Under the pieces are notes generated by a model that ran no database searches, was not told the origin of the DNA, and worked only from the letters and a program-made list of their open reading frames with translations. From positions 372,001 to 436,000 of the forward strand of contig CAMPDV010000010.1 of assembly GCA_946699065.1 (NCBI GenBank): a stretch of 64,000 nucleotides of DNA, in the 5' to 3' direction. A program made the position numbers and the translations under genes. The stretch comes from Loxodes magnus (Eukaryota; Ciliophora; Karyorelictea; Loxodida; Loxodidae). Positions 17,786 through 64,000 of this stretch are shown piece after piece (positions within the stretch are counted from its first letter, which is position 1; each line of letters starts with the position of its first letter).

Positions 17786-22800
<5,015 letters not shown>

Positions 22801-57240: not shown

Positions 57241-58673
57241 TCATTAGAAGGCTTCTATTACTCTATAGGAATATGGAGAACTTGGGGTTTAAAAGGGGGA
57301 TTGACTTACTTGTCTTAAAAAGAAGTCCAATTGATACTAGAAAATCAAGCGTGATGCTTAATATCCTCTACATCATTCTTAGCTCCTATTCTTTTTTCTA
57401 CTTGTTTTTCCAAAAGTTTAGTAATAAGATCTTAAAGATTTACGGAGATTTCTTTATTACTTAGCATCTATTAAGGAAAAGTTAATCCTACTGCTTTAGG
57501 ATTTAATGGTTCATTTTTCTAAAACGGTAAAATGCCGCAAATCATCTCATACAGCAATAGTCCGAAATTCCATCAGTCTGAACTATTTGAAAATCAGTTT
57601 TCCTAAACTTCAAGTGATTTTTACACTTCTGGAGCTAAGAGGATATTTTGCAATTGGTTACTTTTTTTGAATATTCCAAAATCAGTTAGATAAATGAATC
57701 CTTGCTCGTCCATTGCTAAGTTATCAAGCTTTAAATTTTAAAGGTTAATATTAATTGAGTGCAAATGCTAAATAGCCAAAATTAAGCTTGCGGCATAAAA
57801 TCTGGTTTCTTCTTCTGTAAATCTTTTACTTTCAGTATTAAGTAAATGATCCTTCAAATTACCTCCATTATAATATTTGATTGCAAAGTAAATTTTGTCA
57901 TTAGAAATGAAGCAACTATGAAGTGAAGCTATGAATGGATGAGACTTATACTCTTTTATCTTTTAGAGTGTTACTGAATTACTAAACTTATTTTGCTCAG
58001 CTACTTATTCTCTTCTTAATGAATGAATTTAATAGATCTAGTGGTCTTATTTATACTTAGCTAGCAAAATTTTATAATTTTCTTTTTGTTAAATTTTCAC
58101 TAAAATAAAGTCTTCTAGTCCTATGTTAAGACCATTTTAAGAGTAAATCGCTTCTTCTATTTATTAGAGCTCTAAGGGATAGTTTATTGCAGTTCTTTTA
58201 TCTGGTATTCTAGTTATTCCCTTTTTCCTTTCTGCTTTCAAAGTAGTGCAGCAAATCAAAGAAGGCTCAGGTGTTTCTCACTTATATAAAAACTAGTTTC
58301 CGCAGCACTTTGATTGGAAGGCTTTTTCTATAGATTCGATTACTTCATTCTTTCTAATCTAAAAACTTACTATACACAGCTAAACCTATAATCATAAGTT
58401 GAAGGACAATGAATAACAAATTCCTAACTTGAAGTAGAACAGGAAATTCCTTGCAATTCTTCAAGCAAAATCCTTCTCTAAATCTCTAAAATATTAAAAT
58501 AAAATACTCGATCCTTTCATATTCAGAATAGCAAAATTAGTAACAACGCAAAGCCTTTCTTATCCTTTATTTCTCTTATTATACTTTATTAACTAATATT
58601 AGCTGAATACCTTTTCTCCATGTTCTAATATCTTTAACAAGCTTTTATCTATTTCTGTATTACTATGACTCAT
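57241..58673 (-). CDS. AGC-family pseudokinase with N-terminal PH/TH1-like lipid-binding domain
   Basis: ATG 58673; introns at 58486-58507 (22 nt) and 58359-58375 (17 nt). Spliced, residues ~15-125 read E-K-V-F-S-Q-Y...K-Y-N-K-R-N-K-G-Q-E-R, C-V-V-T-N-F-A-I-L-N, then E-F-V-I-H-C-P-S and Y-D-Y-R, the pattern of myosin-I TH1/PH-like membrane-binding domains. The kinase domain follows: D-F-I-L-V-K, F-A-I-K-Y-Y-N-G-G-N-L, T-D-F-G intact. The VAIK Lys appears to be His, the HRDLKPEN loop reads N-L-Q-N-L-K-L-D-N (no catalytic Asp), and the activation segment is shortened (L-L-A-P-E-V). The AGC tail has K-R-I-G-A-K, H-H-A-W-F and N-P-P-F-K-P. Probably catalytically dead. No in-frame TGA is found soon after N-P-P-F-K-P, so the exact 3' end is unresolved (here set at 57241). 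Confidence 0.75.
58359..58375 (-). other. 17-nt intron
   Basis: On the minus strand GTATAGTAAGTTTTTAG; it links Y-D-Y-R-F-S-C to I-R-K-N-E-V-I-E-S. Confidence 0.8.
58486..58507 (-). other. 22-nt intron
   Basis: On the minus strand it starts GTATTTTATT and ends ATATTTTAG. It links L-N-M-K-G-S to K-I-Q-R-R-I-L-L-E, completing the PH/TH1-like domain. Confidence 0.8.
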
Positions 58674-59366
58674 TATATTAAGTTAAGATTATTAATTTTT
58701 ATAAGTAGCAATTTATTAATTCTTATATAGGCTTCTAAGTTTATCCTTTTACTATTTTAGCAGACTTATTCTTGCTGTATTTCTTAGATTCCCATTGCAT
58801 TTATCAAGCTTACTAGATTCTTAGCTATACTGTTCTATTGATAAAAGTATGCTTAAGTAAAGTTAGATTAGGTAGTCTACTTTATCCCTGAGTTTCTCTA
58901 TCTCTAGCTATAATATGTAACTAGTCTAAATAGCAATTACTTTAGTTCTTTTAATGTACTTATTTAAGTATGTATCTATTATAGTTTTAATGCTAGTAGT
59001 ATTTATTAAATTGTACTGATATAGAGCCAATCACTTATTAAGCTATATTAGAACTATCTTATTAATTTATTTAGCTAGCTAAAGTAAAACTTTAGTTATA
59101 TTACTCTAATCAATTAGATGCTAATAGCTTATTTAAAAATCATATGAATATGGAGTTAGATGCTAGGTTAAGTGAAGGTGCTGATATCTTACTAAATTAA
59201 TTTGATATCATATAGTATCTTAATTTCACTTTCGTTAAATAGACTCTTTATAGCCTTTAAAATAGGAGTTAAGAACTTATTTCTAGTCCTTATAGAAATA
59301 AGGAATAGCTACTGCTATTAAATGAGTATAAATACTATCACTTTACTTTATTCATTTTAATAAATA
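58674..59366. promoter_or_regulatory. Divergent intergenic region
   Basis: 693 bp between the pseudokinase start (-) and the sphingosine kinase start (+). AT-rich with no recognised gene or element. Confidence 0.4.
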
Positions 59367-60754
59367 ATGGAAAGTATAGAGTCAATAACCTCATAGCAGT
59401 ACATTTTGAAAGGAAAATTTGAAATAAAGAAATGAGAAGTGAATTTGGTTATCTAGGAAACACTGATGATAATAGAAGGATTGCAAAATTAAATAGTTTC
59501 TTATAATCTAAGGGATGTTATTGGAGCTATTTAGAGTGATAAAGCTGATAATTAGTTTATATTAAGCGTTTTTCCTAAAGTAAGAGGAAGGAATAGGAAA
59601 CTAATAGTAAGAATTAATGCAGTAATACAATGTAATTGCCACTAGTTAGTAGTAATCATTAGAGTGAGTTTAAGCCTTATAATAAATTTTATATAAGAAG
59701 GATAAAAAATTAATGGTATTTGTAAATCCTATTTCTGGTAAAGGAAAAGCTTTAAGATTATGAAGACAAGCCAGTTAGATGTTCCATTTTGCTGGTATTA
59801 ATGTAAAGGTTGTTGGTAATATTTTAAATAGCTTTAGAGACTTAATATAGGTACCATGCAAAAGAATATGTTTAGAACGTAAATTTATAAGAGTTTGACT
59901 GTATTATGGCTTGTTCTGGTGATGGGATAATCCATGAAATAATAAATGGATTATTCTTAAGACAAGATGCTTAGATAGCACTTAAATAAATAGTAGTATA
60001 TCAGATTCCTGCAGGAAGTGGGAATGCACTTTCAAAAACGATATGTGAATTGTCCGATGAAAATTGTAATGTTTAAACAGCTGCTTTTATTGCATTAAAA
60101 GGAACTAAAATTTAACTTGATCTATTTCAAATTGATTTTACCAGCGAAAATATATAAGAAGAAGAAAAGCAAATAGAAGAAGTTCCTTAATAGCATAGTT
60201 CTCATGATATAAGAAGTAAAAATAAAGAAACTATAATAGCATTCTTAAGTATTACTTGAGCTTTCATTTCACAAGTAGACTTAGGTTCAGAGTTTATGCG
60301 ATGTTGTGGAGAGATTCGTTACACAATATATGGAGCTTGGTTAGCTTGTAAAGGTAGTAGATATACAGGGGATTCACACTTTATATAAGTCTAAGAAGAT
60401 TAAGAATAGAAAGTAATGCAAAATAACTAATAGTACTTATACTGAAGCTTGTATAATTTACCTTATATATCTGAATCTTCACATGCAGCTCCACATGCTT
60501 AGATCAACGATGGACTTTTAGACTTAGTCTACATAACACCTTAACAGTGCGGAAAATGCAGATTTATTAAAATTCTACTTGATCACGATAATGGATCTTA
60601 CACAAGAGCAGGATGCACCAATTACCATAAAGTAAATAAGGTGAATTTAAATCCAAGGAACGGAGTTTTCAGTATAGATGGAGAGAGATATAACATAGGT
60701 ACAGTTGATATAAGTGTATTATCCAACATGCTGAATACTTTTGCATTAAAATGA
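59367..60754 (+). CDS. Sphingosine kinase (DAGK-type catalytic domain) with N-terminal PH-like region
   Basis: Two 16-nt introns (59607-59622, 59816-59831) are removed to give 451 residues, ATG 59367 to TGA 60752-60754. Residues ~10-105 look like a PH domain ending E-W-V-Q-A-L-Q-Q-I-L. The diacylglycerol-kinase catalytic fold starts V-F-V-N-P-I-S-G-K-G-K at 112-122, then the E-T...H-A-x-E block at ~147-156, S-G-D-G-I-I-H-E at 173-180 and P-A-G-S-G-N-A at 204-210. C-terminal blocks include I-N-D-G-L-L-D-L-V and F-S-I-D-G-E. This is the sphingosine/ceramide kinase family, phosphorylating sphingoid bases to signalling lipids; sphingosine versus ceramide substrate cannot be told from sequence. 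Five of six Trp are TGA. It lies 226 bp upstream of the VSD-PDE gene on the same strand. Confidence 0.9.
59607..59622 (+). other. 16-nt intron
   Basis: GTAAGAATTAATGCAG; its removal joins N-R-K-L-I to Q-Y-N-V-I-A-T and keeps the PH end in frame with the catalytic domain. Confidence 0.85.
59816..59831 (+). other. 16-nt intron
   Basis: GTAATATTTTAAATAG; its removal joins I-N-V-K-V-V to A-L-E-T-Q-Y-R-Y-H-A-K-E, the conserved ET...HAxE block. Confidence 0.9.
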
Positions 60755-60980: not shown

Positions 60981-62851
60981 ATGGTAGACAAAGCAAAAGT
61001 AGCTGTAAGTTTCTTAAATATAGCCTGAAAAAGAAATTTAATGAGGTTAAATGCCAGAATGGAGGTCTAAAATAGCTGATGTGATGTTCAGTAAAAAAGT
61101 GGAAACATTCATTCTTGCTTTAATTCTGATTTATGCAATAATATCAATAGTGAACATTACATTAGAGAATGATGTTAAGTATATATCCTAAGTTACTCAA
61201 TACATTGAAATTTTTATTCTAGTGGTATTTATTATTGAAATATCTCTTAAGGTAGCGGCAGTGGGATTAGTAAGCTTTTATTCAGATTTTTATAAAAGAC
61301 TGCTGAAATATATTCGATATCTTAATTGTTCTAGCCTGCTTTGCCTTTGTTATTATGGAAATTGTAAAACCTGAGTTATCAGGTCTTTTTTTTACCAAGT
61401 TTAGAGCTATTCTTAGGTTATTACGTATAGTCATTATGTTCAGAAAAATGAATCAAATGAGAAAAATTAGAGAAAAGCGCAGAAATTTTAAGAAAGGACT
61501 GATTTCACCAGTAGAGCGGTCATCTAATATTCTTAAATAGCTAAAAGATAATGAAATATCATAGTAAGATGGAGAGTTCATGCAAATATGTGACTGAGTC
61601 TTATAAATCATTGTCTCTAATAAGCTTTATGACCCAATCATTACTTTTGAAGGAGAAGAAAATGGAGAATAAGAGAAGGAAATTCTACAATGAGTTAACT
61701 AATACTCTACTAGTGCAACTCAAGGCTAAAAGAAAAATAAATAGCATACAATGACGCTAAAATAATCAGAATTTACTAGTAATGATTTACATGATAAAAT
61801 TTCTTCCTGCTTGGAAAAGAGCAGCAACTATGACTTTAATATGTTTGAGTTAAAAGAGATATGTGAGAATTAAGAAGTGATACACCTAATTCACCATATC
61901 TTCATTTAGCTTGATCTATTCAAGCAATTATAAATTGATTAGGAAAAACTAAAATTCTTCTTAAAGATAATTCAAGATGGTTATATAAAAGAGAATCCTT
62001 ATCATAATGCAACTCATGCAGCCGATATTACATAAACAATCCACTACTTCTTAATTACTGGAGAAGCAGCTGAAGTTGCAAAACTGACAGACTTAGAGTT
62101 ATGTGGATGCTATTTAAGTGCATTAGTCCACGATTTTGAGCATCCTGGCCTAAATAATTAATTTTTGATAGAGACTTCTCATAAATTATCAATAACCTAC
62201 AATGATGTAGCTGTCTTAGAAAATCATCACATTGCTGCTGCATTCAATATTATTCTTAATGATCCTGAAATCAAACTATTCAACGATTTTTCTCGTGAAG
62301 ATTACTGTGCTATAAGAGAATAAATGGTTTATATGGTGCTTGCTACTGATATGTCAAGACACTTTTCTGATCTTACAATTTTTAAAAGTAAATTTACAGT
62401 TCCTAGAGAATGCAAATCATCTGATAAAAAAAATTTCTTAGAAATGCTAATTCATATTGCTGATATAGCTAATGCTGCTAAACCTTGAGAAATATGCTAA
62501 AATTGGGCTTTGCTTGTAATGAATGAATTTTTTAACTAAGGAGATTAAGAAAGAAATTTGGGGATTCCTATTGGATAACTTAATGACAGATATGCTGTCA
62601 ATATTGCTAAAACTTAAGTTGGATATATATCAGCAATCGTTCTTCCTGTATTCGAAATATTCGGTTTCGTTCTTCCTAATTGTAAAATATGCTTCGAAAA
62701 CTGCCAAAAAAATAAAGAAACATGGGCTGGTTTGATCGAAATGCACCAGAAAGAACTAGAGAAAAGACAGAACGAATTAAAGGATAAGGAGGTAAAGTAA
62801 TATGACAATAATTTTGAGAGCACTAGAGATGAGTAGAAGAGTAAGAAATGA
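60981..62851 (+). CDS. Voltage-sensor domain fused to class I cyclic-nucleotide phosphodiesterase
   Basis: Spliced of introns at 61005-61023 (19 nt) and 61270-61285 (16 nt), the gene gives 611 residues, ATG 60981 to TGA 62849-62851. Residues 33-145 form four helices: S1 ~35-55, S2 ~66-88 with Glu80 and Lys84, S3 ~98-117 with Asp101 (N-I-F-D-I-L), S4 ~126-145 with Arg130, 134, 137 and 143 at about three-residue spacing. A basic linker (~146-160) follows, with no S5-S6 pore. Residues ~275-560 are a complete PDE domain: H-N-A-T-H-A-A-D at 330-337, [10 protein letters not shown] at 372-381, L-E-N-H-H, Asp483 in [11 protein letters not shown], and the invariant Gln534 (encoded by TAA). All metal ligands are present, so hydrolysis of cAMP or cGMP is expected. 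Membrane voltage may gate it, by analogy with voltage-sensing phosphatases. Five of eight Trp are TGA. Confidence 0.9.
61005..61023 (+). other. 19-nt intron
   Basis: GTAAGTTTCTTAAATATAG; its removal joins the first exon (M-V-D-K-A-K-V-A) to P-E-K-E-I-Q-W and the S1 frame. Confidence 0.75.
61270..61285 (+). other. 16-nt intron
   Basis: GTAAGCTTTTATTCAG, between S2 and S3; its removal yields I-F-I-K-D-C-W-N-I-F-D, the standard S3 entry. Confidence 0.9.
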
Positions 62852-63859
62852 AAGCCTGTAGTTTATAGTAATTTTATAATTTATTTGCTATAAATTTACT
62901 TCTATTTGTTATACCTATAAACTACTTATTTCTTAATCCTTCATATCCCTATTTTCATTTAATATCTACACCTTTATCTATATTTCGCAGTTTTCTCTTT
63001 AAACTATCTTACAGCTAATTCCCTTTGCTTTGACATCTTTACTAATTAAGTAGAGCAATTATCAATTTTACACTTCTTGAAGTAAACTTAAGTAATTAAA
63101 TGTCAGCTTAGCCTATTAAATATCTACCCCCGCACTTTTCTATAAAGGTATAACAAGAGAAAGTTATGAAATATATCCTTAGAATAGTTAATAACTGTAC
63201 ATTTAGTTCAGTTATATTGTAGCTAAAGGGTATTTAATACTAATGTTACTTTATATGGTTATGGTAATACAAAGCTGCTGCTCTTTTTTTAACTCTTATT
63301 ACCTTTTCATTTATAATTCCTCTTTCAATTAATTCAACCATCTATAATAGATTAACGATTAGAGCAATCGTTATATTTTCATATGCCTTATGTTGATACT
63401 TTATTAATACTTCAATAGCTAGATATTAAAGAAAAGAATAAGCATGATTATCGAAAGGCATTAGAGAGATAAACTCTAGAAACTAAGCTTTTAAAAGGAT
63501 AAGTTATGGTTGTATTTATATTCTATTCATATCATTATAATCTAAAATGGATAGACATAAACACTATTATTGAGGTTCGATTAACTAATATGAAGTAAAT
63601 ATCTTAAAAGCAAGTATCAAAATATTATATTTTACCGTTTTATCTAAAGAAAGGTTAATTAATAAAAACAGCATTAAACAAGAACTAATTAAGTACCTCT
63701 TAAGCTTATCATATAGTCTAATGTTAATCTTATTGAAGGTTTAGGTAAATAAAAGTTAAGTATTAATTAAGTTAAATGCTATATTAGTAGTAATAGGTAT
63801 AGATTATTGCTACTAACCTAGAAGGAATAATCATTATTAGTTAAGCTATTTTAAATAAA
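62852..63859. other. Intergenic AT-rich spacer
   Basis: About 1 kb with no recognised gene on either strand. It should contain the 3' UTR of the phosphodiesterase gene and the promoter of the gene starting at 63860. Confidence 0.45.
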
Positions 63860-64000
63860 ATGGGATGTGGAGTTTGTAAGAAATAAGCAATTCCAAATAG
63901 CTCTTTAAAGACAAAAAATAAAGTACTTAAAAATAACTTCTTTTCAGATACAATTTCGGTATCTTCTTGGACTTCATGTGCTTCAAATGAATATTTAAAT
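63860..64000 (+). CDS. N-terminus of a probably lipid-anchored protein (cut by the window edge)
   Basis: ATG 63860, open to the right edge (47 residues seen). It starts M-G-C-G-V-C-K-K-Q, a strong N-myristoylation plus dual palmitoylation signal like that of membrane-anchored kinases. The rest is Lys/Asn/Ser-rich linker. CDPKs and related kinases in ciliates often begin this way, and the CDPK at 42749 has a similar start, but no domain is reached here, so the function is unknown. Confidence 0.5.

Follow-up and report, generated by a model that had tools for sequence, protein, structure and literature searches.

The window analysed here, a stretch of 64,000 nucleotides from the genome assembly of the ciliate Loxodes magnus, carries at positions 60981-62851 of its plus strand one gene of 611 codons followed by TGA, whose three exons are joined in phase. 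Its limits, an ATG at 60981 and a TGA at 62849-62851, are those given by the first-pass annotation; three close paralogs back the start with an ATG at the corresponding position, and the stop marks the end of similarity-supported sequence, picked by eye as in the paralogs. Exon 1 (60981-61004, residues 1-8) agrees with these three paralogs in its start and in the position of the intron after it, exon 2 (61024-61269, residues 9-90) holds S1 and S2, and exon 3 (61286-62848, residues 91-611) encodes S3, S4, a linker and a phosphodiesterase (PDE). The two introns are predicted, run from GT to AG, and measure 19 nt (61005-61023) and 16 nt (61270-61285, in the S2-S3 loop); the S1-S4 frame is continuous only once both are removed, and GT-AG introns of 16-19 nt occur at the same two places in the three close paralogs. 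The coding sequence has a GC content of 0.303, and the 100 bases flanking it on either side 0.21-0.22. For translation, TAA and TAG were taken as glutamine and TGA as tryptophan, TGA also being the stop; the gene contains 20 TAA, six TAG and five TGA codons in frame. Both the code use and the intron lengths agree with the values for L. magnus in the accessible part of the genome paper, according to which UGA serves as stop as well as Trp (NCBI table 27), the MAC assembly amounts to 706 Mbp and the introns have a mean of 19.3 and a mode of 17 bp, those below 16 bp being negligible (PMC11441545). With amino acids assigned to all three stop codons, the openness of a frame is no proof by itself, and the evidence lies in similarity. 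The five TGA codons fall at residues 15, 97, 194, 226 and 491; among the 11 paralogs a TGG stands at residue 97, the W of WNIFD at the beginning of S3, in five, at 194 and 226 in three each and at 491 in one, which marks these four as Trp positions, and residue 15 has no TGG counterpart among them.

Searched against Pfam with E up to 1, the protein matched two families only, Ion_trans and PDEase_I. The Ion_trans match (PF00520, E=6.9e-12) spans residues 34-150 and profile positions 4-117 of 241. The helices predicted for this half are S1 (61093-61161, residues 32-54; an AlphaFold helix at 15-37 in model numbering, converted manually), S2 (61177-61263, residues 60-88), S3 (61301-61366, residues 96-117) and S4 with a basic extension (61385-61492, residues 124-159), the last with R130, R134, R137, R143 and K144 and with pLDDT below 50 from residue 151. 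S2 bears the motif E70-x6-F77-x2-E80, and D101 is the acidic residue of S3. The F-x-x-E of S2 and the D of S3 make up the charge-transfer centre, the residue roles being those of Kv1.2, and in voltage sensors the passage of the S4 arginines through this constriction of F, E and D moves charge across the field, in the outward direction on depolarisation. Among solved structures, the sensors nearest by sequence are repeats of Cav3, Nav and Cav2 channels (E down to 9.9e-16), and TPTE2 is a weak match (E=0.0013). The S4 is light in charge, with about three to four charges in register and an uncharged position at I140, so that sensing could be weak, a point that counts against a voltage-regulated PDE. 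The first-pass annotation had proposed an S1-S4 module with acidic partners in S2 and S3, arginines in S4 and no pore, and both the module and the lack of a pore were borne out: the motif residues recur throughout the gene family described below, the Ion_trans match ends at profile position 117, the strongest hydrophobic stretch beyond S4 (residues 535-553) lies inside the PDE part, and no Ion_trans match was obtained in the six frames of 62852-64000 or in the upstream plus-strand frame at 59630-60754.

The second half is a PDEase_I catalytic domain (62000-62704, residues 329-563), matched over 238 of 238 profile positions at E=1.5e-76. PDE1B and PDE4 are its best sequence matches in the PDB (E down to 3e-60), and the metal ligands (H, H, D, D), the general-acid H and the invariant Q are all there (H330, H334, H372, D373, D483 and Q534), with catalytic roles as in PDE4. 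The class I PDE is thus intact, as had been noted at first, and the profile searches of both halves that were then suggested as a check agree with the initial assignments. N486, conserved in 10 of the 12 genes of the family, occupies what we take to be the site of the PDE4 Asn linked to cAMP preference; it is weak evidence pointing to cAMP, and the substrate is a guess.

Between the two halves lies a linker (61493-61798, residues 160-261), for which two helices are predicted and which carries the motifs SPVE and NKLY; it may resemble the helical region preceding the catalytic domain of human PDE8. A profile of this linker recovered the voltage-sensor PDE genes at E<=2.5e-22 and no other locus below E=1 among the loci compared (L001-L059), and a profile of S4 plus linker gave nothing significant against the PDB (best SAP97, E=0.2). 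Structure prediction, also suggested in the first-pass annotation, was made with AlphaFold from an alignment of the 12 paralogs, in which the window gene retained five intron-coded residues and three paralogs were represented by exon 3 only. The model (mean pLDDT 72.3, pTM 0.59) places the four S1-S4 helices, two linker helices and the PDE domain in this order, with pLDDT below 50, in model numbering, at 80-82, at 139-157, where S4 ends and the linker starts, at 189-243 in the linker, and at 369-386 and 587-599. Foldseek returned PDE4D first (E=2.1e-18, TM-score 0.89 by target length), and the best 50 matches listed were all PDE chains. A second model, for the intron-free paralog L038, has a like order of helices at a mean pLDDT of 64.9, with values below 50 at 148-168, which is the same S4-linker junction, and elsewhere. 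The prediction yielded four helices and a PDE4-like fold, but a poor junction between sensor and linker in both models, for which reason the path of coupling from S4 to the PDE is here a proposal.

The gene belongs to a family. The L. magnus assembly searched comprises 705,730,643 bases in 7,843 contigs, and the PDEase_I profile gave 133 matches in it, which manual merging reduced to 109 places in addition to the window gene; at about 110 places, PDEase_I forms a very large family in this genome, which also holds 73 matches to guanylate/adenylate cyclase domains, many of them paired about 1.5-2.8 kb apart. With the window sensor as protein query, the window gene and 11 more were found, each directly ahead of a PDEase_I match on the same strand, so that there are at least 12 voltage-sensor PDE genes; four weaker hits (L047-L050) coincide with full Ion_trans channel matches. 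Sensors were counted by protein queries, the Ion_trans profile on the genome having been scored for 150 of 954 candidates. The genes fall into subfamilies A (the window gene, C9, C41 and C47:928k, which share the positions of their two short introns), B (two genes on C17, and C109 and C209), C (C46 and C3) and D (two genes on C47). Sensors of subfamilies C and D, used as queries against the whole assembly, each recovered eight of the 12 genes and no additional PDE-linked sensor; their other hits (10 and 6, respectively) all coincide with Ion_trans matches except one, C3:812425, which adjoins such a match. In the eight genes of subfamilies B, C and D (L036-L039 and L043-L046), a single similarity match in one frame runs across sensor, linker and PDE. 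The paralog ends were picked by eye, and a TGA follows the picked end in 10 of the 11, with none within 200 nt in subfamily A3. Ahead of the sensor, the genes of subfamilies C and D (L043-L046) encode some 330-360 extra residues with hydrophobic segments and a Cys-rich stretch; in the two of them that were scanned this extension has no Pfam domain above the cut-off, and through it a ligand may act as an input besides voltage. In prokaryote genomes 12 loci were found, all with matches confined to query residues 238-576, a range that excludes the sensor, and 16 pattern matches in IMG/VR included no relative.

Conservation across the family extends to both halves and to the linker. All 12 genes keep E or D at position 70, F77 and E80 in S2, D101 in S3, R134, R137, R or K at 143 and K144 in S4, N202 and Y205 in the linker, and H330, H334, H372, D373, H376, E402, D483 and Q534 in the PDE; R130 is restricted to subfamilies A and B (8/12). 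The dN/dS ratios are 0.047-0.121 for the sensor (six of six pairs), 0.036-0.269 for the linker (the five pairs with measurable dS) and 0.030-0.122 for the PDE (the three pairs with unsaturated dS), and the first 12-20 residues in subfamilies A and B are freer, at 0.179-0.793 (four pairs, few codons); two pairs share the window gene, dS is saturated for the PDE part in three of the six pairs, for one linker and for one N-terminal part, and values of 1.9-2.9 in several other comparisons make those ratios rough.

Among the remaining PDEs of this genome, all 27 loci sampled from the approximately 97 places that have no voltage sensor show 3-7 hydrophobic segments within 1.5 kb upstream, and the upstream part of the one such multi-TM locus scanned with Pfam gave nothing above the cut-off. 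Profile comparison revealed no kinship between the voltage sensor and this multi-TM module (hhalign probability 0.7%). A tree of the PDE domains was built from the 12 voltage-sensor PDEs, the 27 other PDEs and five of the 12 bacterial loci; nine multi-exon PDE loci and about 60 further places are outside its sample. In it the 27 multi-TM PDEs form one clade (100/100), the voltage-sensor PDEs stand outside it as A, B and C+D, and C+D lie closer to the multi-TM clade (support 89/77). The voltage-sensor PDEs appear as a single group in 8% of the bootstrap trees and not in the best tree, for which the program issued a long-branch warning, and the starred branches of the tree would allow a single origin of the fusion.

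That one protein combines a stand-alone voltage sensor with a class I PDE is well supported by these comparisons, and the reading at odds with it is that of an artefact, in which two adjoining genes, an error of assembly or splicing, or termination at TGA would leave sensor and enzyme as separate proteins. The window copy does require two assumed introns, predicted from DNA, and every one of the 12 genes has one to four TGA codons between S4 and the PDE, in the window gene those at residues 194 and 226. Termination at these codons would be compatible with the DNA alone, yet they look like Trp codons, both positions of the window gene being TGG in some of the paralogs, as given above. The short introns recur in three paralogs, the order of sensor and then PDE is kept in all 12 genes, and the eight genes whose similarity runs from sensor through enzyme in one frame make an artefact of assembly or splicing, and likewise two separate transcripts, very unlikely; taken as a whole, the artefact explanation seems to us close to negligible. 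Hardly more credible is the idea that the S1-S4 part itself conducts ions, as a proton or gating-pore current of the Hv1 type, with the PDE attached. Hv1 is likewise an S1-S4 protein with no pore, and the sensor has a weak sequence match (E=6.3e-5) to the chain 3wkv_A, named 'Ion channel', which we assume to be Hv1-derived. The sensors of Ca2+ and Na+ channels are far better matches, though, and the Hv1 signature of S4, RxWRxxR, is absent from all 12 genes, on which ground membership in Hv1 was rejected.

Two further alternatives accept the fusion and question its purpose. The S1-S4 part may descend from a channel and do no more than anchor the enzyme in the membrane or target it, for instance to cilia, with the PDE constitutively active or otherwise regulated. 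A membrane part is common in these PDEs, as the 27 sampled loci attest, with no known sensing role. An anchor, on the other hand, has no need of the acidic residues and phenylalanine of S2, the aspartate of S3 or the RLLR of S4, yet these are kept in all 12 genes, although sensor identity to the window gene falls from 84% to 23% across the family, and the low dN/dS of the sensor in every pair also speaks against it; we regard an anchor as unlikely. Less probable still, in our opinion, is that the S1-S4 part associates with a pore protein or with another sensor, the PDE making a local zone of low cAMP around that channel. Voltage-sensor subunits can act as partners, and the genome is rich in Ion_trans channels; against this, the sequence indicates no partner, and the linker shows the conservation that an element coupling sensor to enzyme would have.

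Several known systems resemble the window protein in part. The voltage-sensing phosphatases (Ci-VSP, TPTE/TPTE2) likewise join a pore-less S1-S4 module, a linker and a cytosolic hydrolase in one chain, as far as the available descriptions go; their enzyme is a PTEN-like lipid phosphatase, whereas that of the window protein is a class I PDE. PTEN-like phosphatases have the pattern HCx5R, which is absent here, and with Ion_trans and PDEase_I as the only Pfam families, membership in this group was rejected. The channel-adenylyl cyclases of Paramecium, Tetrahymena and Plasmodium also combine a voltage-sensor module with a cyclic-nucleotide enzyme in alveolates, according to the accessible parts of two papers (PMC4588038 and PMC10651576, both citing Weber 2004). 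Unlike them, with their K+ pore and their production of cAMP, the window protein is pore-less and its enzyme belongs to a family that breaks cyclic nucleotides down, and assignment to these cyclases was rejected as neither a pore nor a cyclase domain was found. In Rh-PDE, as described in the part of its paper available to us, a membrane sensor and a class I PDE dimer are connected by a helical linker of 76 residues, that of the window protein measuring about 100, and the sensor acts on the dimer through this linker, modelled as crossing between the protomers (PMC7644710). Rh-PDE, however, senses light by a retinal-binding domain and not voltage, and this kinship too was rejected, the N-terminal half of the window protein matching Ion_trans only and having four predicted membrane helices, not seven. 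The multi-TM PDEs of alveolates such as Plasmodium and Toxoplasma, on the portion of their review that was accessible, also have membrane helices ahead of PDEase_I, and the terms 'voltage' and 'ion channel' are absent from its main text (PMC10865986). In four subgroups of Euplotes, PDEase_I and Ion_trans are always adjacent and were reported as adjacent genes in the accessible portion of that study (PMC8670190); the likeness is in the pair of Pfam domains and their neighbourhood, and these pairs may be the same fusion, unrecognised. No description of a voltage-sensor PDE was found in the literature searched, which leaves out most subscription journals. The proteins with a voltage-sensor domain named in the available part of one paper are ion channels, a phosphatase, a Na+/H+ exchanger and a cyclase (PMC10651576), and the main text of another on voltage sensors has no mention of phosphodiesterase (PMC13095418).

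Of the first proposal of a PDE wired to a voltage sensor, then, the fusion in one protein stands, with a family of at least 12 genes behind it, and the voltage dependence, the PDE activity, the substrate, a location in cilia and a part in their beating are inferred. From its sequence and by comparison with the voltage-sensing phosphatases, we consider it fairly probable that the protein is a voltage-regulated cyclic-nucleotide phosphodiesterase. Such a protein would be seated in the membrane and would form a dimer through its PDE domains, as is usual for class I PDEs. On depolarisation, S4 would move outward past the constriction of F77, E80 and D101, and the S4-linker segment would relay this movement to the PDE and alter its activity. 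The activity would most likely rise, by analogy with the voltage-sensing phosphatases, which respond to depolarisation according to abstracts in the literature, although this direction is a guess. Depolarisation would then lower cAMP, and perhaps cGMP too, the reverse of the ciliate channel-adenylyl cyclases, which are linked to hyperpolarisation; a PDE activated by depolarisation would make up a push-pull pair with them. In Paramecium, the available text reports that hyperpolarisation is accompanied by a fast rise of cAMP, and in each of the sixteen adenylyl cyclase genes it describes the cyclase as joined to a K+ channel domain (PMC4588038). The wider proposal, for and against which we find the case evenly balanced, is that this would be the first voltage-gated cyclic-nucleotide PDE, an old kind of ciliate signalling enzyme, present in Loxodes with at least 12 genes that form several subfamilies, which would directly destroy cAMP/cGMP upon a change of potential as the push-pull partner of those cyclases. 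Only a few enzymes driven by membrane potential through a sensor of their own are known. If true, a voltage-sensor PDE would convert voltage into loss of a second messenger within one molecule, would make one half of a long-standing question testable, that of how the membrane potential of ciliates sets cyclic-nucleotide levels and ciliary beat, and might serve as a tool for the electrical lowering of cAMP.

Other features of the window were recorded in passing. Just upstream of the sensor-PDE gene and on the same strand, a diacylglycerol-kinase-like gene occupies 59630-60754 (DAGK_cat, E=3e-13), and a protein kinase domain lies on the minus strand at 57594-58700 (E=6.8e-18, a partial profile match). 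An ATT repeat of about 980 copies, with 99% matches, fills 17788-20727, and the segment 48001-50000 has a GC content of 0.382, against 0.208-0.290 in the other 2-kb bins outside this repeat.
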